A stretch of 38,886 nt of DNA from Candidatus Daviesbacteria bacterium (GTDB taxonomy: Bacteria > Patescibacteriota > Microgenomatia > Daviesbacterales > UBA10151). Each line of letters opens with the position of its first letter. Position 1 is the first letter of the stretch. The stretch is from assembly GCA_016176405.1 (NCBI GenBank), contig JACOXG010000015.1, forward strand, positions 1 to 38,886, written 5' to 3'. Both the position numbers and the translations under genes were made by a program. The notes beneath the pieces were generated by a model, which saw only the letters and a list, made by a program, of their open reading frames with translations, was not told where the DNA came from and searched no databases. Below, one piece after another: positions 13,644 through 34,246 of the stretch.

Positions 13644-15008
13644 ATGCAGAAAATTGGCAGGTTTTTCAATATCAAATTTCTTTTATCTTTGTTCGTCTTA
13701 TTGGGACTATTTACACTCTGGGTTTATCAGGGAGTTGCCCAAACAGGGATACACGTTGATTTGGCTAGAGATTTACATTATCTATCTGAGATTTGGGTAG
13801 GCAAAATTGTCTGGCTGGGACCAATGACCAGTGCCAATTTCCCCACTCCTCCCATCTATTATTATCTACTTTTTCCCGGGCTTTTGTTAAGTAGTGGGAA
13901 CGGATTATCTATCATCTTTTCCCAAACTTTTTTTGCCCTTTTAGCATTAACACTTTTTGCCTACTTTCAATCAAAAAACTCACTCATTTCCACTCTCTTT
14001 GTCATATTAACTATCGGTTTATCTCCCTGGTGGATACGTGCCTCTACTCTACCCTGGAATGGTCATATGTATGTAGCTTGGGTATTTCTTGCATTAACTA
14101 GCCTTTGGTTTAAAAATCCCATTTTTATTTCAGCTCTTTTGTTTGGCATCTCTATTGCCATCAATCCAGTAGCCATCCTGGCCCTGCCTGTATTATTTTA
14201 TGAATGGCTAACTTATGAGAAAAAGATTAAAAACTTAGTTTATGTTTTATTGGGATTATTGCTTCCTTGGACCCCAATTTTGATTTTTGAAATTATTACC
14301 AGGGGATTTTTGATACGTCAATGGCTGGAACAACCTTCTGCAGCTGGGATCATTTTTTCTCCTAATATGGCCAACATTTCTCCTTTATTAAATACCATTG
14401 GCATCTCTCAAGTACCAGCCGTGGTAATTTGGCTGATGGCATTTTTAATTGGTTCAAAAAGAGCCAAATATTGGCTGGTCATGGCCAGTCTACCCTTAAT
14501 TTTTTTAATGCTATTTTCTCCACTTAGAGGATATTATCTTTTGGGGCTGATCTGTGCTCTCACCTTCATTACTCTGATTAGCTTGTCATCAAAAACAATT
14601 GGCAGAATTCTACTAATTATTTTTATTTTCTCATATATTCAAATGATCAGTTTTCCTCCTCTTAACTTGAGTGGCCGTTCAATTCCCAGGATGAATAATG
14701 TTGTTGATACATTTATAGAAAATAACCATCTGGATAAGACTAAAAAATATGCTGTTGTTTCTGTGATTGATTCACAAAATTCCACACCCCAGGCAGATGA
14801 TTATAGATTTTTTTTAAGAATGAAGGGAGTGAATGCTTTAAGCCTTGATCAATATAATCAGGCTGATATTTTAGTGCTTTTTGTTGAAGTTCCAAACTTT
14901 AATTGGCAAGATTTTGAAGATTGGCATACCCAGCAATTTGGCAGCAGGAAGCTACTTTCAAGTCAAAATATAGATGGAATTGAGATTATAATTTATGGAA
15001 GGAATTAA
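13644..15008 (+). CDS. Multi-TM glycosyltransferase (PMT/ArnT-like GT-C fold)
   Basis: Many TM helices; N-terminal HVDLARDLHYLSEIWVGKIVWLGP resembles the GT-C loop 1. Confidence 0.65.
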   Translation: MQKIGRFFNIKFLLSLFVLLGLFTLWVYQGVAQTGIHVDLARDLHYLSEIWVGKIVWLGPMTSANFPTPPIYYYLLFPGLLLSSGNGLSIIFSQTFFALLALTLFAYFQSKNSLISTLFVILTIGLSPWWIRASTLPWNGHMYVAWVFLALTSLWFKNPIFISALLFGISIAINPVAILALPVLFYEWLTYEKKIKNLVYVLLGLLLPWTPILIFEIITRGFLIRQWLEQPSAAGIIFSPNMANISPLLNTIGISQVPAVVIWLMAFLIGSKRAKYWLVMASLPLIFLMLFSPLRGYYLLGLICALTFITLISLSSKTIGRILLIIFIFSYIQMISFPPLNLSGRSIPRMNNVVDTFIENNHLDKTKKYAVVSVIDSQNSTPQADDYRFFLRMKGVNALSLDQYNQADILVLFVEVPNFNWQDFEDWHTQQFGSRKLLSSQNIDGIEIIIYGRN

Positions 15009-15598: not shown

Positions 15599-15615
15599 GC
15601 TCCCCCGGGAGGATT
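15599..15615. repeat. Distal att site of the integrative element (displaced tRNA-Asn 3' end)
   Basis: GCTCCCCCGGGAGGATT, identical to 23536-23552 in the 3' end of tRNA-Asn. Confidence 0.88.
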
Positions 15616-15866
15616 AATTACCTTTTGCTTCGCAAAAGAACGAACAGCTTGCCAGATACTGGTGCGCAGTTCAAATCCACAATCAGGGAAGTTTTGAGAA
15701 CCTCCGCCTTTGGCGGAGAACCTCAAAACTGCTCCCATTATAGAAGATTACTCGAATTTAAGCTCAATTTTAACAAATCAGCAGCTCCTTGTAAATTTAT
15801 ACAATAAACTTTCTAGCTTAGACCTTTAATACCCTTTGGTGAGGAGATAAAAACTCTGCTGACCTT

Positions 15867-16622
15867 TTAAGAATCAAATGTTTTGTCGTATTGTTTTAAA
15901 CGTGTGGCAGATTGTTCACCCGCTGACACTTTTGCTCTAACGAGAAGACCAAATGGTTTATTTCCAAATTCCTTTCCTAAATTTGCAAGATTATGAATAA
16001 AGTAATAAATTGCGGCTTGTGTTCCGAGTACACCATACCCACCAAGAAGGATACCTATTCCTCCTTTTATATTGGGATTCTTTGTTTTTAATATAAGGCC
16101 ATAACCATATTTTTCTGGTTCATCTCTCGGGATAACTTCCCCCGTTGCCTTGTTATAAATATGGTTCTCATCCACCGAGTAGGCCACATTCTCCATGACT
16201 TCATAAAAATTCATACATTTCATTGCTTGTGCTCCAAGAACAATCATACTGCTATCCCAAAATTCATACCCTTTGCTCATTTCGGTAATTTCCAACTTCT
16301 CTCGTTTTCCTAACTCTCCCAAAGTATTTAACAATCTTGCTATTCCACGAGCTTCTGCCTCTGGCCAAACCTTCTCCACATTGGGGTGGGCTTGAGTTGT
16401 TGGCCCCTCTTCAGAAAATAGCTTCGGATTAGAATTAATATTATCTTTGACAATAAAATCTTTAACAAAAATTCGTGTCAGTTTTTTATTGTCAATAATA
16501 CTTCCTAATAATTTTTTTGCTGGCCTGATATAAAAGAACCAGTGTGCTAAAAATTTCCATGCTGAGAAAAAAAGTTTTATAAAATCTAAACATAACTGAA
16601 TTAGAGATATAATTGTTCCCAT
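15867..16622 (-). CDS. Membrane-anchored orphan protein with a possible Rossmann-like domain
   Basis: Hydrophobic N-terminus; YGYGLILKTKNPN...GGIGILLGGYGVLGTQAAIYYF. Confidence 0.6.
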   Translation of the reverse strand: MGTIISLIQLCLDFIKLFFSAWKFLAHWFFYIRPAKKLLGSIIDNKKLTRIFVKDFIVKDNINSNPKLFSEEGPTTQAHPNVEKVWPEAEARGIARLLNTLGELGKREKLEITEMSKGYEFWDSSMIVLGAQAMKCMNFYEVMENVAYSVDENHIYNKATGEVIPRDEPEKYGYGLILKTKNPNIKGGIGILLGGYGVLGTQAAIYYFIHNLANLGKEFGNKPFGLLVRAKVSAGEQSATRLKQYDKTFDS

Positions 16623-16629
16623 TTACTTA

Positions 16630-17343
16630 TTACAAGTTGGTTTCAACATCAGATTTTTGTTCCTGCAACACATCATTGAAGTAAGCCAATAGAGTTCCGC
16701 TTGCATCTACATACCTGATTTTAGTCTTATTGCTGCAGAAAGCACCATATTCAGAAGGTATCTGTCCAACCTCGTTATATCTATGCTCTATAAAGTTACG
16801 GGCAAATGTCTTAATTTGTTGCTCATTAGGTGAACCAGGTAAATGAAGTTCATCTGAAATAAATTCCTCTGTAGCCCAGATTTCATAAGAATTGGGTCTA
16901 ACTTTTAAACCAGTTTTTTCCATGAAATCAATATCAATCCTCCATACTTCGAATCTGGGTTTAATTCTCCCAAAGTAACCGATCTTGTAAAAAATACCAT
17001 CATCTAATGCGAATACCTCTTTAGTTTTTTTAAACTTATCTTGAACTTCTGATAGCATATAGAATTTTTCCATTAAGTCAGATGGATTACTCCCAAGTTT
17101 TGCAAAAATATCCTCTCCAAATATTCTTTCTATAGCCTCTGATCTAAGCTTATGTAAACTATGTAGTTGGGGAGTAATACCTCCAAAGAATAAGGATTCA
17201 TTTTTTGTAAGTCTGTATTTTCGATAGAGCTCTAAGGCATCTCGGATTGTTTCACCCATGCTTTTATAGTTGTTAAAACTATATTTTCTAAGCCACTCAT
17301 ATAGTTGGTCATCTAAGTATATTGTGGTTTTCATTGACGCCAT
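16630..17343 (-). CDS. Ribbon-helix-helix N-terminal domain fused to an uncharacterised C-terminal domain
   Basis: MKTTIYLDDQLYEWLRKYSFNNYKSMGETIRDALELYRKYR is RHH/CopG-like. Confidence 0.65.
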   Translation of the reverse strand: MASMKTTIYLDDQLYEWLRKYSFNNYKSMGETIRDALELYRKYRLTKNESLFFGGITPQLHSLHKLRSEAIERIFGEDIFAKLGSNPSDLMEKFYMLSEVQDKFKKTKEVFALDDGIFYKIGYFGRIKPRFEVWRIDIDFMEKTGLKVRPNSYEIWATEEFISDELHLPGSPNEQQIKTFARNFIEHRYNEVGQIPSEYGAFCSNKTKIRYVDASGTLLAYFNDVLQEQKSDVETNL

Positions 17344-17581
17344 AATACCATACTACGGTTAGCTTCGTCAATAATTAAAACAAAAGGTGGTGGGAGCTTT
17401 TTAGGTACGGGATTATAAATGATGTGGGTGAAAATATATATAGCTTTTTACATCCACTGTCCTAAAAATCCTAGGCAGGTAGAATTTCCAAATTGGTACC
17501 ATATTGAAAATTTTAAAAGAAATTTATGATAACATAGACGGTAGAATCGGTGTTGTAGATTAACTAGTCCGTGAGGAATAA

Positions 17582-17962
17582 ATGGAAGATCAACCTAAAA
17601 CCTTAATTAGTAAATATAAAAATTGGATTATTGGAATAGGTGTAGTCTTATTTATAATTTGGGGTATTTCTGCAATTGGTGGAAGTTCATCAAAAAAGGT
17701 AGAATCTACCAAAGTCTTAGCACCTTCTTCCACACCCTCTCCGCAATCCTCCTATCCTCCAGAAAGTATTATAAACCCTACCCAGAAACCAGGAGGTAAT
17801 ACTAACACCTATGGTGGTTCTTCTAGTTCGGGAGGAGACAAAGACTGCTCTGATTTTTCAACCCATGCAGAGGCTCAAGCGTTCTTTGAAGCTGCAGGGC
17901 CAGGTGATCCACACAGGTTAGATAGAGATGGAGATGGGATAGCTTGTGAAACTTTACCTTAG
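17582..17962 (+). CDS. TM-anchored Excalibur calcium-binding domain protein
   Basis: TM, Ser/Pro linker, then [41 protein letters not shown]. Confidence 0.85.
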
Positions 17963-17979
17963 TAACTACACTCTCAGGA

Positions 17980-18198
17980 TTAGAAAGGAAGAATATCTTT
18001 TACTTTTGTTTTAAGTACAGATGCAATTTTTTGAAGAGTTTTAAGACTTACTCTCCTTTTTCCAGTTTCAATTAACCCAATATGGGTTGTGCTTACATGA
18101 ACCTTATCTGCTAATCCTTCTTGGGTTAGTTCTGCTTTGCCTCTTAATTTGGCAATTCTTTTGCCTAACCTAATATCATCTTGAGTCAGCTTAGTCAT
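17980..18198 (-). CDS. XRE-family HTH regulator
   Basis: RIAKLRGKAELTQEGLADKVHVSTTHIGLIETGKRRVSLKTLQKIASVL. Confidence 0.9.
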   Translation of the reverse strand: MTKLTQDDIRLGKRIAKLRGKAELTQEGLADKVHVSTTHIGLIETGKRRVSLKTLQKIASVLKTKVKDILPF

Positions 18199-18323
18199 AG
18201 GCTCACCTTAACAAAAGGCAACTAGATTTTTTATTACGTAAAAGGAAAGATTTAAGGCCAAAAGTATTGACTTTTTATTAACTAGGAGTTAGTCTGGAAA
18301 ACAGATTACACAAAATTTTTGAA

Positions 18324-18857
18324 ATGACAATAATATTAATACCCTTATTGCTAATAATTTACGCTCTTTGGTTATTCTTCTCGCCCAGTGCGGGATTCAT
18401 ACTTTATATAATTTTTTCTATTCTGTTAGTGGGATGGCCACTACTTGCCCAGCCTGGTGCAAAGGCCCCTTTTGAATACTTTAAAAAAGACATTCTAAAG
18501 TACCTATCAGAGGGTGAATATAAATTCTTAATTAAAAATGCAGTCTTCTACCGCTGGCCTTTTGTCTCAAGAGAAATATCAAGCTTATTTTCATTCCTTT
18601 ATTTGTTTAACTTAGTCTCTGGAGCTACCTTTCTTTTTAGAGGGGAAATTACATACTTAATTGTAGCGATAGTTTCTATCCCCCTTTTTGCTTACTTTTC
18701 ATCTAAATATAATCCTAATTTTTTTATTGCTCAAAAGAAGGATTCTAGCTTAAGAGGTACATTAGAGAAATTAGATTCAGAGCAAGTAACCAACTTTATA
18801 CTTAATACTTGGCCAAAGATACTGGAAAAGTATAGTAAGAAAAACTTAAAGAAATGA
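18324..18857 (+). CDS. Hypothetical membrane protein
   Basis: 177 aa with several TM segments. Confidence 0.6.
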   Translation: MTIILIPLLLIIYALWLFFSPSAGFILYIIFSILLVGWPLLAQPGAKAPFEYFKKDILKYLSEGEYKFLIKNAVFYRWPFVSREISSLFSFLYLFNLVSGATFLFRGEITYLIVAIVSIPLFAYFSSKYNPNFFIAQKKDSSLRGTLEKLDSEQVTNFILNTWPKILEKYSKKNLKK

Positions 18858-19030
18858 CAACTTTCCAAAAACTGCTAATTATAATTCTTATAATCTTTGG
18901 AGTCCTATTTTTATATATTTTGAAAACGGGTATAGAATTTCACGCCTGTATTACAGGAGTGAATGCTCGTGTTGCACAGGCACGTTGTGGAGAAGTTGTT
19001 AAAACAGGGTTTGGTGCAGTGGGGAACTAA
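18854..19030 (+). CDS. Small TM protein (58 aa), overlaps the previous gene by ATGA
   Basis: MTTFQKLLIIILIIFGVLFLYILKTGIEFHACITGVNARVAQARCGEVVKTGFGAVGN*; not in the ORF track. Confidence 0.55.
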   Translation: MTTFQKLLIIILIIFGVLFLYILKTGIEFHACITGVNARVAQARCGEVVKTGFGAVGN

Positions 19031-19051
19031 AATCAGAATTCCCAAAAAAGA

Positions 19052-19234
19052 TTGGAATATGGAAAAAGCACGCTTGTAATATTTTTAACTTTCATTTTTA
19101 CATTTGTCTTTATTTTGATTGATGCATTACTTCAAAGATTAAAAGTTTCAGATCCAGGTTTATACATTATGGCTTACGCTTTCACTACGGCTTTGATAAT
19201 AGCCTTTTATCCTTCTAACCAAGATTCCAATTAA
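19052..19234 (+). CDS. Small two-TM hypothetical protein
   Basis: 60 aa ORF, hydrophobic. Confidence 0.45.
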   Translation: MEYGKSTLVIFLTFIFTFVFILIDALLQRLKVSDPGLYIMAYAFTTALIIAFYPSNQDSN

Positions 19235-19513
19235 CTTCTTATAAAACAGCTCTTAACAAAAATGAGTACTTAAGGATAATGGTATTAAATTTAATTATCT
19301 AGGCATAAAATAATTAAAAAAATCATAAATTTTTACCTAAAAAGAGTAAAATTATCTCCAAAGCTAAAGCGAGCCTGTTTTAGTAGTAAAATGGATTAAA
19401 AAGTTACGCATGTTGAGATCAGAAAAAAGTATCAATTTATGCCCGCTGCCTATAAAATTGGACTAATCCTGAGAAAAAGGTAAAATAAGCACGAGTTAAA
19501 AATAGTCTCTACG

Positions 19514-20272
19514 ATGCAAGATAAAAAAATAGGTACTGATAAGGAGCAAGCAATTTTTGAGGAGTTACTCCTTAATCCTAAGTTTCAAAAAATAGTTCCC
19601 AAAATAAGGATTAGCTATGGAATCCCACCTGATGGCTTCAAAAATGGAGAAGAATATCTTAAGTGGTGGCAAACTTATAACTTTGAATATAAAGAGTTTA
19701 AGGTAGCACAAGAATTATTTGATTTAGATATTAATGATAATCCAGAGTTGCTTTCCAAAAAAATCTCTAAAAGAAGAATAAAAATTTACCACATTGATCT
19801 TTGCAAAATTCTGAAAGAGTTAGATTTGAGTTTAGAGTGGCTCCCTTTTATAGATGGCTGTGTGACTATGAATAAGGATATAAATTCTAAGGGGAAGATC
19901 AGTTATTATTTTGCTAATTTAACCAGAGAAACCTGTGAAGGTGTAATTATTAGTGAAGAGCTACATCTTAATTTTGGAGCTACCATGAATTTAAAAAGGA
20001 TTTTTGATGATCCTTTTGGAGGAAGTATCTGGATGAAAGAGGTTGAACCGCTCCAATCTATAATGCAAGGTTACAAAGAGAAAAAGAGGAGACCAAAAAG
20101 ATCAGGAGCTGCATTACAATCAAAAATTTATCACATGGCTAAGGAAGGTCTTAGTGATTCAGATATAGAAGCAAAACTGTACACTGATGGATTAATCAAT
20201 GATGATTTCAACTTTTGGAGCATCAGAAAAAATAAACAAAGAGCTAGAAAGAAATACTCCCCTAATAGTTAA
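19514..20272 (+). CDS. Hypothetical protein of the element
   Basis: 252 aa ORF upstream of the RepA-like gene. Confidence 0.6.
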   Translation: MQDKKIGTDKEQAIFEELLLNPKFQKIVPKIRISYGIPPDGFKNGEEYLKWWQTYNFEYKEFKVAQELFDLDINDNPELLSKKISKRRIKIYHIDLCKILKELDLSLEWLPFIDGCVTMNKDINSKGKISYYFANLTRETCEGVIISEELHLNFGATMNLKRIFDDPFGGSIWMKEVEPLQSIMQGYKEKKRRPKRSGAALQSKIYHMAKEGLSDSDIEAKLYTDGLINDDFNFWSIRKNKQRARKKYSPNS

Positions 20273-20281
20273 CTATTAGGG
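20260..20281. repeat. Perfect 22-bp palindrome
   Basis: CCCTAATAGTTAACTATTAGGG; contains the stop codon of the 19514 ORF. Confidence 0.9.
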
Positions 20282-20310
20282 TCACAAATTTTCTCAAACA
20301 CTAATTTAAA

Positions 20311-20379
20311 CTGGCATCATAACGCCAGGATCGTAGAGACCGCCCTCGGTTTAACCTGGCAGTTACCGAGGGTTGTTTT
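20311..20379 (+). promoter_or_regulatory. Structured leader / attenuator-like element before the RepA-like ATPase
   Basis: Hairpin CTGGC(20311)/GCCAG(20324); hairpin CCCTCGGT(20343)/ACCGAGGG(20365) followed by TTGTTTT and then ATG 20380; loop CCTGGC(20355) is complementary to GCCAGG(20324). Confidence 0.55.
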
Positions 20380-21684
20380 ATGGATGAAGAATTAGAAAAA
20401 AGATTAAAAGAATTTGAGGAACGAAAAGATAAAGAATCCAAAGCTAAATTGGAGCAACTTGAGAAAGATTGGCCTTTAAAGGAAAGAATTTTAGCCATGG
20501 ATCAGATGAAGGCTAAGGAGAGATTGGATAGAGAAATCAAGGAGTTAGAGGAATTTGAAGAAACCCAAAGGGAACTAGATTCCAAATTTGTCCCCTGGAA
20601 AGAGTTTAAAAGCCAGGTGTTTGAAGAGCCTAAATGGGTCATAGAAGGGATCATCCCTGAAAAAGGCATTGCTGCATTAGCAGGATCACCAGAGTCTTGT
20701 AAAAGTTTACTTTCTAATTTTATAGCACTAGCTGTGGCTAAGGGTGAGACATTTTTAGGTAAATTTCCAACTCTTAAAAAAGCAGTGCTGATTATCGATC
20801 AGGAGAATTTACCAGTCTGGATACAAAAAAGGATTACAAATTTTACTTCAGAAGAGGATTTACCTATGTATATCTTCCAAAGCAGAAAAGGTGAATTCAA
20901 AGTTGAGAATGAAGATATTTTTGGCCAGGTAAAGAAATTTATTAAAGAAAAAAATATAGGACTGGTAATAATTGATACTCTAAGGTTAATCCATATTGGA
21001 GAGGAGAACTCCTCCACAGCCCTAGCCCCTGTTATTGATAAGTTAAAAGAACTTTCTGAGTTTACCGCCATACTTTTGATACATCACAACCGCAAGATGG
21101 ATAGGAATAGTAAAGGTAAAGTGGGCGGAGAAGACATGATGGGTAGTATTTTTATCCGCGGTTCACTTGATTCCCAGCTCACTTTAGTAAAAGTCACTGA
21201 TCCTTCAGACAATGTACCCAGAGTTAGGGTAACCCACACCAAATCCAGGTATATTCAACCAATACCAACTTTTGATCTAACCTTAGAGGAAAATGACAAA
21301 CAGTTACTGGAGTTTGTTTACCAGGATGCTCCTGAAGAAGAACTGCTTAAAAGAGAAGATGCCAAAGGTACAATTTTGGCACTTCTTCAAGAGCAGGACT
21401 TTACTAGGCAAGAATTAATAGACCAATTAAAACAGGATGGGATTTGTGGTCAAAGGACTACTGAAACTGCATTAGCCGAATTACAGCGAGAGGGAAAGGT
21501 AAAGCATACTGAAGCTAAACCACACGTTTACTCATTAGTAGAATCAGTAAACATTCCGCAATCCGCAAACCCCTATATAGGTAACAAAATTGCGGAATCT
21601 TCTGAAAAAATTTCTGATGACAAACAGCTAGATTTAATGAAAGGGATTTTTGGGGAGGGGACAAAGTGGGAAGAGGAAAAATAA
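20380..21684 (+). CDS. RepA-like / AAA_25-type replicative ATPase
   Basis: Walker A-like LAGSPESCKSLLSNF; VLIIDQENL; LVIIDTLRLIH; LLIHHNRK; GSIFIRGSLDSQLTL. Confidence 0.75.
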   Translation: MDEELEKRLKEFEERKDKESKAKLEQLEKDWPLKERILAMDQMKAKERLDREIKELEEFEETQRELDSKFVPWKEFKSQVFEEPKWVIEGIIPEKGIAALAGSPESCKSLLSNFIALAVAKGETFLGKFPTLKKAVLIIDQENLPVWIQKRITNFTSEEDLPMYIFQSRKGEFKVENEDIFGQVKKFIKEKNIGLVIIDTLRLIHIGEENSSTALAPVIDKLKELSEFTAILLIHHNRKMDRNSKGKVGGEDMMGSIFIRGSLDSQLTLVKVTDPSDNVPRVRVTHTKSRYIQPIPTFDLTLEENDKQLLEFVYQDAPEEELLKREDAKGTILALLQEQDFTRQELIDQLKQDGICGQRTTETALAELQREGKVKHTEAKPHVYSLVESVNIPQSANPYIGNKIAESSEKISDDKQLDLMKGIFGEGTKWEEEK

Positions 21685-21812
21685 AAGGAGAGCGAGCACG
21701 GAAGAAAAACAAAGATTTATTTGCAGTCAGGTTAGCCACCCTCCTACTTGTCCAAAACAAACTATTACCCCCTACTGTCTTGGGCATTAAGGATTTAACT
21801 AAAAGGATTTAA
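21666..21812 (+). CDS. Possible small basic protein (48 aa), GTG start overlapping the 3' end of the ATPase
   Basis: VGRGKIKGERARKKNKDLFAVRLATLLLVQNKLLPPTVLGIKDLTKRI*; fills the gap between ATPase and HTH gene. Confidence 0.4.
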   Translation: MGRGKIKGERARKKNKDLFAVRLATLLLVQNKLLPPTVLGIKDLTKRI

Positions 21813-21821
21813 TCCTTGACA
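21803..21821 (+). promoter_or_regulatory. Palindromic operator-like site overlapping a -35 box
   Basis: AAGGATTTAATCCTT (21803-21817) overlaps TTGACA (21816-21821) upstream of the HTH/recombinase operon. Confidence 0.45.
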
Positions 21822-21868
21822 CTTACAATTATTTAGCAGATGATTAAGTTAGATCAATTAAGATAACT

Positions 21869-22048
21869 ATGAATAAAACTAAACTTCTAAATATAAAACA
21901 AGCTAGTGAACTTCTGGGGATTACTCCACTTACACTGCGGCGCTGGGATAACAACGGGCGCTTAACGGCCATTAGAGTCGGCTCTAGAGGTGATAGAAGA
22001 TATGAAGAAGCAAAACTGCTTGAGCTTATAAAGAAGGGGAAAATATGA
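21869..22048 (+). CDS. HTH_17/MerR-type excisionase-like DNA-binding protein
   Basis: MNKTKLLNIKQASELLGITPLTLRRWDNNGRLTAIRVGSRGDRRYEEAKLLELIKKGKI*; stop overlaps the recombinase start. Not in the ORF track. Confidence 0.85.
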   Translation: MNKTKLLNIKQASELLGITPLTLRRWDNNGRLTAIRVGSRGDRRYEEAKLLELIKKGKI

Positions 22049-23664
22049 AGACATCTTTAATTTATTCCAGGGTTTCCACCGAAGAACAGGCTCAGGAAGG
22101 CATGTCAATTGATACCCAAATAAACAGATGCAGAAGGTGGGCAGAAGAAAATGGGTATACGGTAGTTGGCATTTATATAGATGAGGGTAAATCAGCTACA
22201 AATATGAACCGTGCAGGCTTACAAGACCTGCTAGCTCGGTGCCAAGAAAAAGATATAGAAGCGGCTCTGGTTTTGGATACAGATAGATTATGCCGCAATA
22301 CACTTGACCATTTAACTGTAAAATCCATTTTACAAAAATCAAATGTAAAGTTAATTTCAATCAGCCAACCTATGATTGATGACAGTCCAGAGGGAAATCT
22401 TATAGATACAATTATTGCATCTGTTAATGCCTTTCAATCCCAAATTACAGGAAGAAAAGTATCTAAGGTGGCAGAGGAAAAGGCAAAAGCTGGATTTTAT
22501 CCAAGTAAGGCCAGGATGGGATATAGCAACATTCCAAATCCTAAACCTGCTGGCAAATTTGATAAGAATATCATAGCTAAAGATCCAGAAAAAGGTAACT
22601 TTATTACTCAAGCGTTTAAGCTATATTCTACAGGGAATTTATCACTACAGTTACTATCAGATCAGTTGTATGATTTGGGTTTACGCTCAACAACAGGTGG
22701 GAAAGTAGGGGTGAGTCTACTTGCTTATTGCTTAAGAGATCCAATGTATATAGGAAAATTTGTGTGGAAGGAAGTTTTATATGAGGGTAAGCATATCCCC
22801 TTAATAGATGAAGAGACTTTTAACCAGTGTCAGGAAGTATTAACTGCCCATAACCAAAATGGTTCCAGACAAAGGAAACATAACTACCTCTTAAGAGGGT
22901 TTGTTTTCTGTGCGGTCTGTACTAGAAGACTTTGGGCAGATAAGCATATAAAGAAAACTGGGTTGGTATTTGAATATTATTTTTGCAAAACTTGTGGGAA
23001 GAATACCTATGTACCTGTTAAGGATCTGGAAACTGAGGTAGAAGAATGGTTCAGTGGTATTCAGATTACAAAAGACTATGCAGAAAGCCTGGTAGAAAGA
23101 GCAAAACATATCTTAGAAGACTTCAGGCATAACAGTAATAATACAACCCAACTTTTGACAAATAAGCAAGCTAAAATTAATGCTGCTATGCAACAAGCAG
23201 AAGATAAGTGGTTGATACAAAAGACTTTATCCGATGAGGCTTTCAGGAGAATCTACAGCCGTTATGAGGCAGATTTAAAAAGCATTGAGAAACAATTAAA
23301 AGAACTGGTAGCAGATCATGCCAAATCCTTAAAAACTGTACAGAGATTAATGGGACTGGCCCAAAATATAGGACTGGCTTATGAGCAGGCAGAGCCTACC
23401 CTTAAAAGGTTTTATTTAGGATTATTCTGGGAAAAGTTTACAGTTAAGAAGGGGAAAATAGTGAATGGACTATTAACCCCAGAGGTAAAAGACCTGATTA
23501 AAAAGCCTACAAATAGTTCGAGTATCAATAATATGGCTCCCCCGGGAGGATTCGAACCTCCAACCTCGATCTTAACAGGATCTCGCTCTACCATTGAGCT
23601 ACAGGGGAATGTTAATGTACCTTGGGAATTTTACCACCCAGAAGTTTCAAAATCCATCTCATAA
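22045..23664 (+). CDS. Large serine recombinase/integrase (3' end reads antisense through tRNA-Asn)
   Basis: IYSRVSTEEQAQEGMSIDTQINRC resolvase motif; recombinase domain; zinc ribbon CAVC...CKTCG; C-terminal MAPPGGFEPPTSILTGSRSTIELQG is translated antisense tRNA. Confidence 0.92.
   Translation: MKTSLIYSRVSTEEQAQEGMSIDTQINRCRRWAEENGYTVVGIYIDEGKSATNMNRAGLQDLLARCQEKDIEAALVLDTDRLCRNTLDHLTVKSILQKSNVKLISISQPMIDDSPEGNLIDTIIASVNAFQSQITGRKVSKVAEEKAKAGFYPSKARMGYSNIPNPKPAGKFDKNIIAKDPEKGNFITQAFKLYSTGNLSLQLLSDQLYDLGLRSTTGGKVGVSLLAYCLRDPMYIGKFVWKEVLYEGKHIPLIDEETFNQCQEVLTAHNQNGSRQRKHNYLLRGFVFCAVCTRRLWADKHIKKTGLVFEYYFCKTCGKNTYVPVKDLETEVEEWFSGIQITKDYAESLVERAKHILEDFRHNSNNTTQLLTNKQAKINAAMQQAEDKWLIQKTLSDEAFRRIYSRYEADLKSIEKQLKELVADHAKSLKTVQRLMGLAQNIGLAYEQAEPTLKRFYLGLFWEKFTVKKGKIVNGLLTPEVKDLIKKPTNSSSINNMAPPGGFEPPTSILTGSRSTIELQGNVNVPWEFYHPEVSKSIS
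23534..23608 (-). tRNA. tRNA-Asn(GTT), 3' CCA encoded at 23534-23536
   Basis: Cloverleaf TCCCCTG...CTGTTAA anticodon loop...GGTTCGAATCC...CGGGGGA G CCA on the minus strand. Confidence 0.93.
23536..23552. repeat. tRNA-proximal att site of the integrative element
   Basis: GCTCCCCCGGGAGGATT, identical to 15599-15615. Confidence 0.88.
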
Positions 23665-33157: not shown

Positions 33158-33192
33158 GAGATTAAAATACTTTAGGCTTCAGCGGACGAAGG

Positions 33193-33279
33193 CGGTGGGA
33201 GGAGGATTCGAACCTCCGTGAGACTTTCATCTCGATTGGTTTTCGAGACCATCCGAATAAGCCACTCTCGCATCCCACC
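33193..33279 (-). tRNA. tRNA-Ser(CGA)
   Basis: GGTGGGA...CTCGAAA loop...long variable arm...GGTTCGAATCC...TCCCACC G. Confidence 0.93.
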
Positions 33280-33284
33280 TTTGG

Positions 33285-33357
33285 CGCGCTCGGCGGGAAT
33301 CGAACCCACAACCGCCAGATCCGCAATCTGGTGTTCTATCCGTTGAACTACGAGCGC
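33285..33357 (-). tRNA. tRNA-Arg(GCG)
   Basis: GCGCTCG...CCAGA-TTGCGGA-TCTGG...GGGTTCGATTCCC...CGAGCGC G. Confidence 0.93.
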
Positions 33358-33373
33358 TTGAGGGTATTTTACA

Positions 33374-33408
33374 CTAACTAGAAGCTAGACGCTAACCGCT
33401 AGAAGCTA
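33374..33408. repeat. Degenerate heptamer array (5 units, consensus NNNGCTA)
   Basis: CTAACTA GAAGCTA GACGCTA ACCGCTA GAAGCTA. Confidence 0.75.
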
Positions 33409-33990
33409 TCTATGGATATTTTCTAAGGGAAAATGTTTTTGTAATCCTTCTGACCATTTTTCCATCCAAGATTTATATGGTACTTCCACAAATGGTAAAA
33501 AGCGGGCTACTATTTTTTTGACTTTTTCCTCATCTTGACCATCTAATACCAGCATCAACTGACCGGGAAATCTGACTCTGGTTTGGATGATTAAAATCTT
33601 ATAATTTTCTTTTTCTTTGAACCAAAAAGCATCCAGAAAATGCCAAAAGTAAAAATCATCGCCAATAGTAACCCCTTGTGTTGAGATTCTGTATCTGATT
33701 GGGTGTGGCGGCACAAAAGCCAAAACATAAGCCACAAAAGTTAAAGCCAAAAGTACCCCAATCAGTAAAAATTCTCTGGCAAGAAGCAAAATTAGGATCA
33801 AAAGAACTACAATTACAGCTGAGGTTGTGTAGTAAGAACGATCTTTTTTCCTAAAAGGTCTCGAAGCAGCTTCCCAAGATAACAGGGTTTTAACCTCCCC
33901 TGCCTCCATAATCTTAGGGGTTAAAAATTCCTCAGGAGTTCTTTTTTCTGATTTATTTTTAGCTTGATCCTTTTTTTCCTCTTTGGGCAT
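33406..33990 (-). CDS. Hypothetical two-TM membrane protein
   Basis: 194 aa; charged N-terminus, two TM helices, WHFLDAFWFKEKENYKILIIQTRVRFPGQLMLVL. Confidence 0.7.
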   Translation of the reverse strand: MPKEEKKDQAKNKSEKRTPEEFLTPKIMEAGEVKTLLSWEAASRPFRKKDRSYYTTSAVIVVLLILILLLAREFLLIGVLLALTFVAYVLAFVPPHPIRYRISTQGVTIGDDFYFWHFLDAFWFKEKENYKILIIQTRVRFPGQLMLVLDGQDEEKVKKIVARFLPFVEVPYKSWMEKWSEGLQKHFPLENIHR

Positions 33991-34070
33991 ACTTCGCTAC
34001 GCTCAGTACAAGTTACCGAACCTAGTAATTCGATTATACAATAAAGTTTACCCTGAACGATAGTGAAGGG

Positions 34071-34157
34071 CGGAGGGGGTGAGATTCGAACTCACGGCTG
34101 ACTTGCGCCAGCAGTGGTTTTCAAAACCACCGCACTAGGCCACTATGCGACCCCTCC
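34071..34157 (-). tRNA. tRNA-Ser(TGA)
   Basis: GGAGGGG...GTGGT-TTTGAAA-ACCAC...GAGTTCGAATCTC...CCCCTCC G. Confidence 0.93.
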
Positions 34158-34162
34158 GTATG

Positions 34163-34246
34163 CGGTGGGTACAGGATTCGAACCTGTGTGACATTTCTGC
34201 CAACGGTTTAGCGAACCGTCTCCTTAAACCACTCGGACAACCCACC
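34163..34246 (-). tRNA. tRNA-Ser(GCT)
   Basis: GGTGGGT...ACGGT-TCGCTAA-ACCGT...GGTTCGAATCC...ACCCACC G. Confidence 0.92.

Follow-up and report, generated by a model that had tools for sequence, protein, structure and literature searches.

A stretch of 38,886 nucleotides from a Candidatus Daviesbacteria bacterium (contig JACOXG010000015.1 of assembly GCA_016176405.1, positions 1 to 38,886, hereafter the window) was analyzed, and we conclude with considerable confidence that it carries a 7.8-kb integrative element that was put at the 3' end of a tRNA-Asn gene by its own large serine recombinase (LSR). The anatomy of the element, the placement of such LSRs at tRNAs across the phylum, an empty site in another genus and the conservation of an LSR tail in other genomes were observed, and from the sequence we infer that the LSR recombines at a short core. 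A broader proposal is put forward tentatively, as possible rather than probable. According to it, Patescibacteria have a dedicated radiation of tRNA-targeting LSRs in which the attachment site of the circular form (attP) lies in the integrase gene and integration remodels the C terminus of the protein as a built-in switch, and, jointly, a 132-bp unit next to the element is a new structured element of tRNA 3' ends, which contains hairpins that covary and an arm that could pair in part with the copied tRNA end, and which has spread onto many different tRNA genes.

Boundaries and occupancy of the integration site

The target is an intact tRNA-Asn(GTT) gene located by a tRNA gene scan at 23534-23608 on the minus strand. 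Both this tRNA and a host of the candidate phyla radiation had been proposed in a preliminary description of the same DNA, and the genome is indeed one of Patescibacteria. The LSR gene (22045-23664, plus strand) was assigned from its domains and frame, which crosses the attachment core and ends past the tRNA gene when integrated. The 17-bp direct repeat reported at 15599-15615 (plus strand) and 23536-23552 was found to be exact, with no further copies in the 0.95-Mb genome, and shuffled windows never yielded two matches to it. Its right copy lies within the 3' end of tRNA-Asn, and its left copy adjoins a DJ-1/PfpI gene.

The 3' end of the tRNA is copied a second time, in shorter form (GCTCCC), at 15731-15736, directly after a structured unit of 132 bp (15599-15730) that echoes the 3' end of the tRNA and is called here the tRNA-echo unit. 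We propose this hexamer (plus strand) as the core of the left attachment site (attL), and GCTCCC at 23536-23541 (plus strand), in the 3' end of the tRNA, as that of the right one (attR), the core being shared by both ends. A second tRNA copy after an echo unit was detected in the window and also at loci L052, L041 and L085. At the LSR-free locus L243, a nearly identical long hairpin runs directly into tRNA-Asn, in a join like that proposed for the window (the joined sequence contained two extra bases). Because the second tRNA copy follows the unit, and because the hairpin of L243 abuts tRNA-Asn directly, the LSR element very probably extends from 15731 to 23535, that is, 7,805 bp between the echo unit and tRNA-Asn, in place of the approximately 7.9 kb (15599-23552) first assigned to it. 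An integrase adjoining an intact tRNA whose 3' end recurs, displaced, on the opposite side is the arrangement of a tRNA-targeted element. Given the position of the element between echo unit and tRNA, the unit would have been on the tRNA before the element arrived.

The neighbourhood of tRNA-Asn and the echo unit were found together without an LSR in G003, a genome of another genus of the same family, in which the order is a homologue of the window gene at 13644-15008 (59% identity), an echo unit, a tRNA-Asn with a group I intron, YggT and RpoD. Among the family genomes, the tRNA-Asn adjacent to RpoD is sometimes followed by an LSR and sometimes not; the difference in occupancy is one between genera, not between strains. 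The empty site anticipated in the preliminary description was seen as flanks lying together in G003. BLAST with the joined flanks in 57 relatives matched essentially tRNA genes and the sequence upstream of tRNA-Asn. DJ-1 itself was found in just one further genome of the family. In the genus of G041, the same kind of search gave no clear empty site for the tRNA-Gly element of that genome.

tRNA targeting and the integrase reading frame

Homologues of the LSR were detected in 38 of the 45 family genomes, 80 of 110 sampled genomes of the class and 118 of 192 sampled genomes of the phylum, and a set of their loci, beginning with the best matches, was examined. Of 94 distinct Patescibacteria LSRs, 76 run up to the 3' end of a tRNA gene in antisense orientation, and in no case is a tRNA present at the 5' end of the LSR; tRNA targeting is thus the norm for these recombinases throughout the phylum. 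The initial observation of a serine instead of a tyrosine recombinase at the tRNA was borne out, but it is not peculiar to this element. Around 17 isotypes are used (Asn, Gln, Glu, Gly, Leu, Lys, Ala, Ser, His, Phe, Arg, Trp, Thr, Ile, Asp, Met and Val), the isotype being unsure for intron-split tRNAs other than tRNA-Asn. Many LSRs apparently lacking a tRNA in fact end at one split by a group I intron, as detected by ARAGORN with its intron option and by Rfam. As for the 18 LSRs without a tRNA, three are at contig ends and two (G015 and G203) precede a second LSR on the same strand, an arrangement consistent with tandem insertions at one tRNA. These same-orientation pairs lie at G015:C4 132463-149842 and G203:C1 9594-14502, and in them the outer LSR reads into the next element. 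Group I introns, which conceal tRNAs from a plain tRNA scan, were seen in tRNA genes, mostly tRNA-Asn, at L194, L187, L204, L196, L210, L098, L101, L103, L122 and L134, several of which adjoin an LSR.

LSR homologues on viral contigs were used as a control, and an antisense tRNA was present at 2 of 89, one of the two being on the contig nearest to the Patescibacteria set. These homologues were obtained with alignment queries and were mostly unlike the query, a single-protein query having given no close LSR on viral contigs. A Patescibacteria-like LSR from the viral contig set (L258) ends in tRNA-His and was left uncounted, being too near the contig end. The control genomes searched with PF07508 returned no loci. 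Along a tree of the 94 LSRs, 33 isotype changes were counted, versus 40-48 in 200 shuffles, and the clade of the window LSR is nearly all tRNA-Asn while spanning several families. These LSRs are serine integrases with natural sites in tRNA genes, whose target switching can be read from the tree.

In the integrated state, the LSR frame is open through the core into the tRNA, and the frame extends beyond the tRNA 3' end in 73 of the 76 tRNA-associated cases. In the predicted circle, the LSR would have 529 amino acids (aa) and end in NNMAPIIEDYSNLSSILTNQQLLVNLYNKLSSLDL, gaining a 32-residue tail that is now stranded at the far left end of the element (APIIEDYSNLSSILTNQQLLVNLYNKLSSLDL, 15731-15829, plus strand, with its stop codon at 15827-15829) and that continues the LSR frame. 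When the ends of nine delimited elements were joined by script, seven had an LSR frame that continued without a stop for 20-45 residues beyond the start of the core. Tails are also kept in other genomes: that of L049 has counterparts in G010 (73%) and G031 (81%), where they are preceded by tRNA-like cores, and that of G011 recurs in G032 and G029, the G029 copy being beside a GTGACCCG core on a contig that also has a tRNA-Lys LSR. The tails of L052 and G020 share LPL..TLRTF.Y, at an E value of 0.08. Differences between tails at codon positions 1, 2 and 3 amounted to 45, 21 and 74 (seven pairs, not all independent). At the core, the integrated tails lack a start codon and yet they show these codon-position differences, so that selection must operate while the element is in some other form, of which the circle is the simplest. 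The frame, the tail homology and the codon positions together suggest that attP probably lies inside the LSR gene.

Several points weigh against this reading of the element. The shared core has just 6 bp; the empty site comes from another genus, in a genome also without DJ-1; neither the circle nor excision nor transfer was observed; two of the nine delimited elements (L041 and G010) have no extended tail; and the relative of the window tail in G020, with 60% identity, has no visible tRNA core beside it. This last is an orphan stretch (L080 9397-9471, G020:C18) encoding the tail relative in reverse orientation.

The small size, the lack of recognised transfer genes and the unseen circle would fit a decayed or immobile island, a segment that the LSR inserted in the past and that is now static. 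We consider this unlikely, as the LSR frame and catalytic motif are intact (YSRVSTEEQ, DTDRLCRN) and the third-position bias of the tails implies recent use of the circle state within the group. Somewhat less plausible still is that the tail represents a small gene of its own or an open frame arising by chance, with the LSR ending at the core and attP beside the integrase gene. The tail does lie outside the recognised LSR domains, and the two tail-less elements and the orphan homologue would agree with it, but the frame continuity in seven of nine elements, the recurrence of tail peptides in other genera, several of them by tRNA cores, the mostly third-position differences and the missing start codon all argue for a tail that belongs to the LSR.

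The tRNA-echo unit

The structured part of the echo unit (15616-15730, plus strand) comprises a hairpin at 15622-15638, a conserved hairpin at 15641-15678 (CGAACAGCT...GCGCAG) and a terminator-like hairpin at 15690-15730, as judged from a covariance model, pair counts and folds. A pattern for the two-hairpin motif gave six distinct matches in 1.87 Mb of retrieved sequence (overlaps included), five of them at copies of tRNA 3' ends. Stem covariation was 0.456 in six sequences, compared with 0.240 when shuffled, and 0.485 compared with 0.238 in 20 distinct sequences, the latter alignment having been fitted to the covariance model and so biased towards it; in both cases none of 500 shuffles reached the observed value.

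With the covariance model, the unit was located at 21 places in 12 of the 45 family genomes. By inspection, 12 of these directly abut a tRNA whose 3' end is copied across the unit, and five are parted from the tRNA by an LSR element (the window, L052, L041, L042 and L085). Three more have the echo but either are set off from the tRNA by different DNA or have no tRNA nearby, and the last has no explanation. In an independent scan, 199 tRNAs were searched for downstream copies of their 3' ends; this gave 23 hits, some of which are neighbouring tRNA genes, against six in the upstream control, and revealed further units. As the unit occurs directly at tRNAs without any LSR, it is distinct from the LSR element. 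What was first taken as the left end of the element, the 17-bp repeat at 15599, thus forms the outer edge of a nested unit and is not the attL of the LSR. The earlier delimitation, in which the element would run 7,937 bp from 15599 to the tRNA with the structured unit inside it, for instance as an attP arm, is very unlikely, for although the exact 17-bp repeat is the longest shared stretch and several LSR elements have a comparable structured stretch within their distal repeat, the unit abuts 12 tRNAs with no intervening LSR, the second tRNA copy separates unit from element, and a join at 15599 fails to give the reading frame of the conserved tail.

One arm of the unit is often partly complementary to the copied tRNA end (judged by eye), several hairpins are predicted, and the terminator-like one usually borders the tRNA. 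The unit could be a miniature sequence inserted at the ends of tRNA genes or else a terminus of older elements, and it poses the question of how a short structured sequence acquires close copies of many different tRNA ends. No credible match was found in Rfam, and the unit was not seen outside the family at strict settings; a class-level match in G049 was discarded, having no nearby tRNA. Integron attC sites, group I introns and group II introns were rejected as identities for the unit, with the conserved boxes misplaced (by eye) and no Rfam intron match.

The source genome has a second echo unit (G000:C10:3892-3929; L241, L252), which directly abuts tRNA-Asp; it holds 18 bp copied from the 3' end of this tRNA, and no recombinase accompanies it. 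In G018 and G040, one or three genes intervene, either between a unit and the tRNA or from one unit to another. At L249 4933-7604 (G040:C9), three ordinary-looking genes have an echo unit on each side and precede tRNA-Glu, in an arrangement that resembles a small gene array accumulated at one tRNA.

Gene content and comparison with known systems

The proteins of the element, the 60-aa open reading frame (ORF) left out, were compared with Pfam, PHROGs, NCBIfam and PADLOC. The LSR matched Resolvase (1.3e-30) and Recombinase (1.1e-10) of Pfam above cut-off and a zinc ribbon (4.4e-4) below it, and it has the invariant residues R9, S11, D80, R81 and R84 of a large serine recombinase. Its start is overlapped by 4 bp by the gene of a 59-aa MerR/excisionase-like helix-turn-helix (HTH) protein (21869-22048, plus strand), likely the directionality factor to judge from its family. 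In L034, its homologue likewise overlaps the start of the LSR, and in L142 it is next to the LSR, but in other loci it is located elsewhere. A terminase small subunit profile matches this protein at the level of the HTH alone. The N-terminal part of the transposase profile phrog_6620 matches the HTH protein, and the C-terminal part of the profile matches the catalytic domain of the LSR (window 21869-22500), a pattern that resembles IS607-type enzymes, in which HTH and catalytic domain are fused. Upstream are a 434-aa RepA-like AAA_25 ATPase (20380-21684, plus strand), whose family suggests that it is likely a replication protein for the circle and whose three relatives in the class all adjoin an LSR, and a 252-aa protein (19514-20272, plus strand) unmatched in the four libraries and with no homologues found for an alignment.

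Further to the left, three small, mostly hydrophobic frames of 177, 58 and 60 aa appear in the ORF list (18324-19234, plus strand), followed by a 72-aa XRE/HTH_3 regulator (17980-18198, minus strand) with homologues in other LSR loci, a 126-aa membrane protein with an Excalibur domain (17582-17962, plus strand, E 9.5e-9), a 237-aa protein with a weak ribbon-helix-helix N terminus (16630-17343, minus strand, RHH_1, E 0.046) and a 251-aa protein with one N-terminal hydrophobic stretch (15867-16622, minus strand), with no family above cut-off and a homologue in the LSR-bearing locus L146. The gene list given earlier thus agrees with strong matches for the LSR, the excisionase-like HTH, the RepA-like ATPase, the XRE regulator and the Excalibur protein, but only with a weak one for the ribbon-helix-helix protein. 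The 251-, 252-, 177- and 58-aa proteins had no confident match in the four libraries. As had been noted, no relaxase, coupling protein or conjugation gene, which would mark an integrative and conjugative or integrative and mobilizable element, and no capsid, terminase, portal or packaging gene, which would mark a prophage or phage-inducible chromosomal island, was recognised in the library scans, in which several proteins had no confident match. Only the LSR, the excisionase-like HTH, the XRE regulator, the ATPase and the 251-aa protein recur in other loci; with cargo mostly private, the novel element family first suggested is not claimable from gene content. The element is known in kind, as a tRNA-targeted, LSR-driven integrative element, and new as a variant. 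Elsewhere in the window, a cluster of Ser and Arg tRNA genes lies at 33191-34246.

In the mechanism that we propose, a tRNA-Asn already carrying the echo unit would receive the element by recombination of the LSR at the GCTCCC core, and the element would re-supply the 3' end of the tRNA. In the excised circle, the LSR gene would span attP and encode the 529-aa protein; integration would strand the LSR tail at the left end, and the LSR would instead end in a tail encoded across the antisense tRNA gene. The 59-aa HTH protein would set the direction, the ATPase would replicate the circle, and transfer may proceed via something beyond the recognised genes, possibly a helper element or the natural uptake of DNA.

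In most descriptions, tRNA genes are the territory of tyrosine integrases. In the reduced genomes of Patescibacteria, this niche appears to have been ceded to LSRs, with around 17 isotypes. The TP901-1 and A118 integrases, CcrB and PHROG 95 were the best sequence matches and have, like the window LSR, Resolvase, Recombinase and zinc-ribbon domains. The best relative in the Protein Data Bank is the TP901-1 integrase, and with CcrB the window LSR scores 140 bits, far below the family cut-off of 900. The known targets of LSRs of the TP901-1, A118 and CcrB types are not tRNA genes. A survey of Actinobacteria called serine recombinase integration into tRNA genes rare, citing phiRSM (PMC3218068), and among Mycobacterium abscessus prophages 16 of 23 tyrosine integrase (Int-Y) sites are tRNA or tmRNA genes and the satellites with serine integrases (Int-S) integrate elsewhere (PMC10654092). 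No published description of the Patescibacteria case was found in a search that left preprints and most subscription papers outside.

The filamentous phiRSM phages of Ralstonia likewise have a serine recombinase at a tRNA 3' end (tRNA-Ser), with a 13-bp core that lies in reverse orientation, but they differ in a small invertase-like recombinase, in virion genes and in an attP between two genes (PMC3816273). Actinomycete integrative and conjugative elements of Mycobacterium also use PF07508 serine recombinases in a tRNA gene (tRNA-Leu); they are, however, actinobacterial and conjugative, with transfer genes, and comprise eight related recombinases at one tRNA (PMC3218068), whereas the Patescibacteria LSRs form a phylum-wide group with many isotypes. 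The intact tRNA, the displaced 3' fragment and the tRNA-adjacent integrase are shared with the tRNA-targeted genomic islands of Islander (PMC4383910). Finally, exchange of the tail is a possible control of the integrase, in logic like integration-dependent immunity (PMC9262239), and an attP in the integrase gene, if true, would make a simple switch between an integration-competent and a resident state. In mycobacteriophage BPs, attP lies in a coding gene and integration alters the C terminus of its product, but that gene encodes the repressor, and the phage uses a tyrosine integrase (PMC9262239), whereas in the window the gene, as read from the sequence, would be that of the serine integrase itself.

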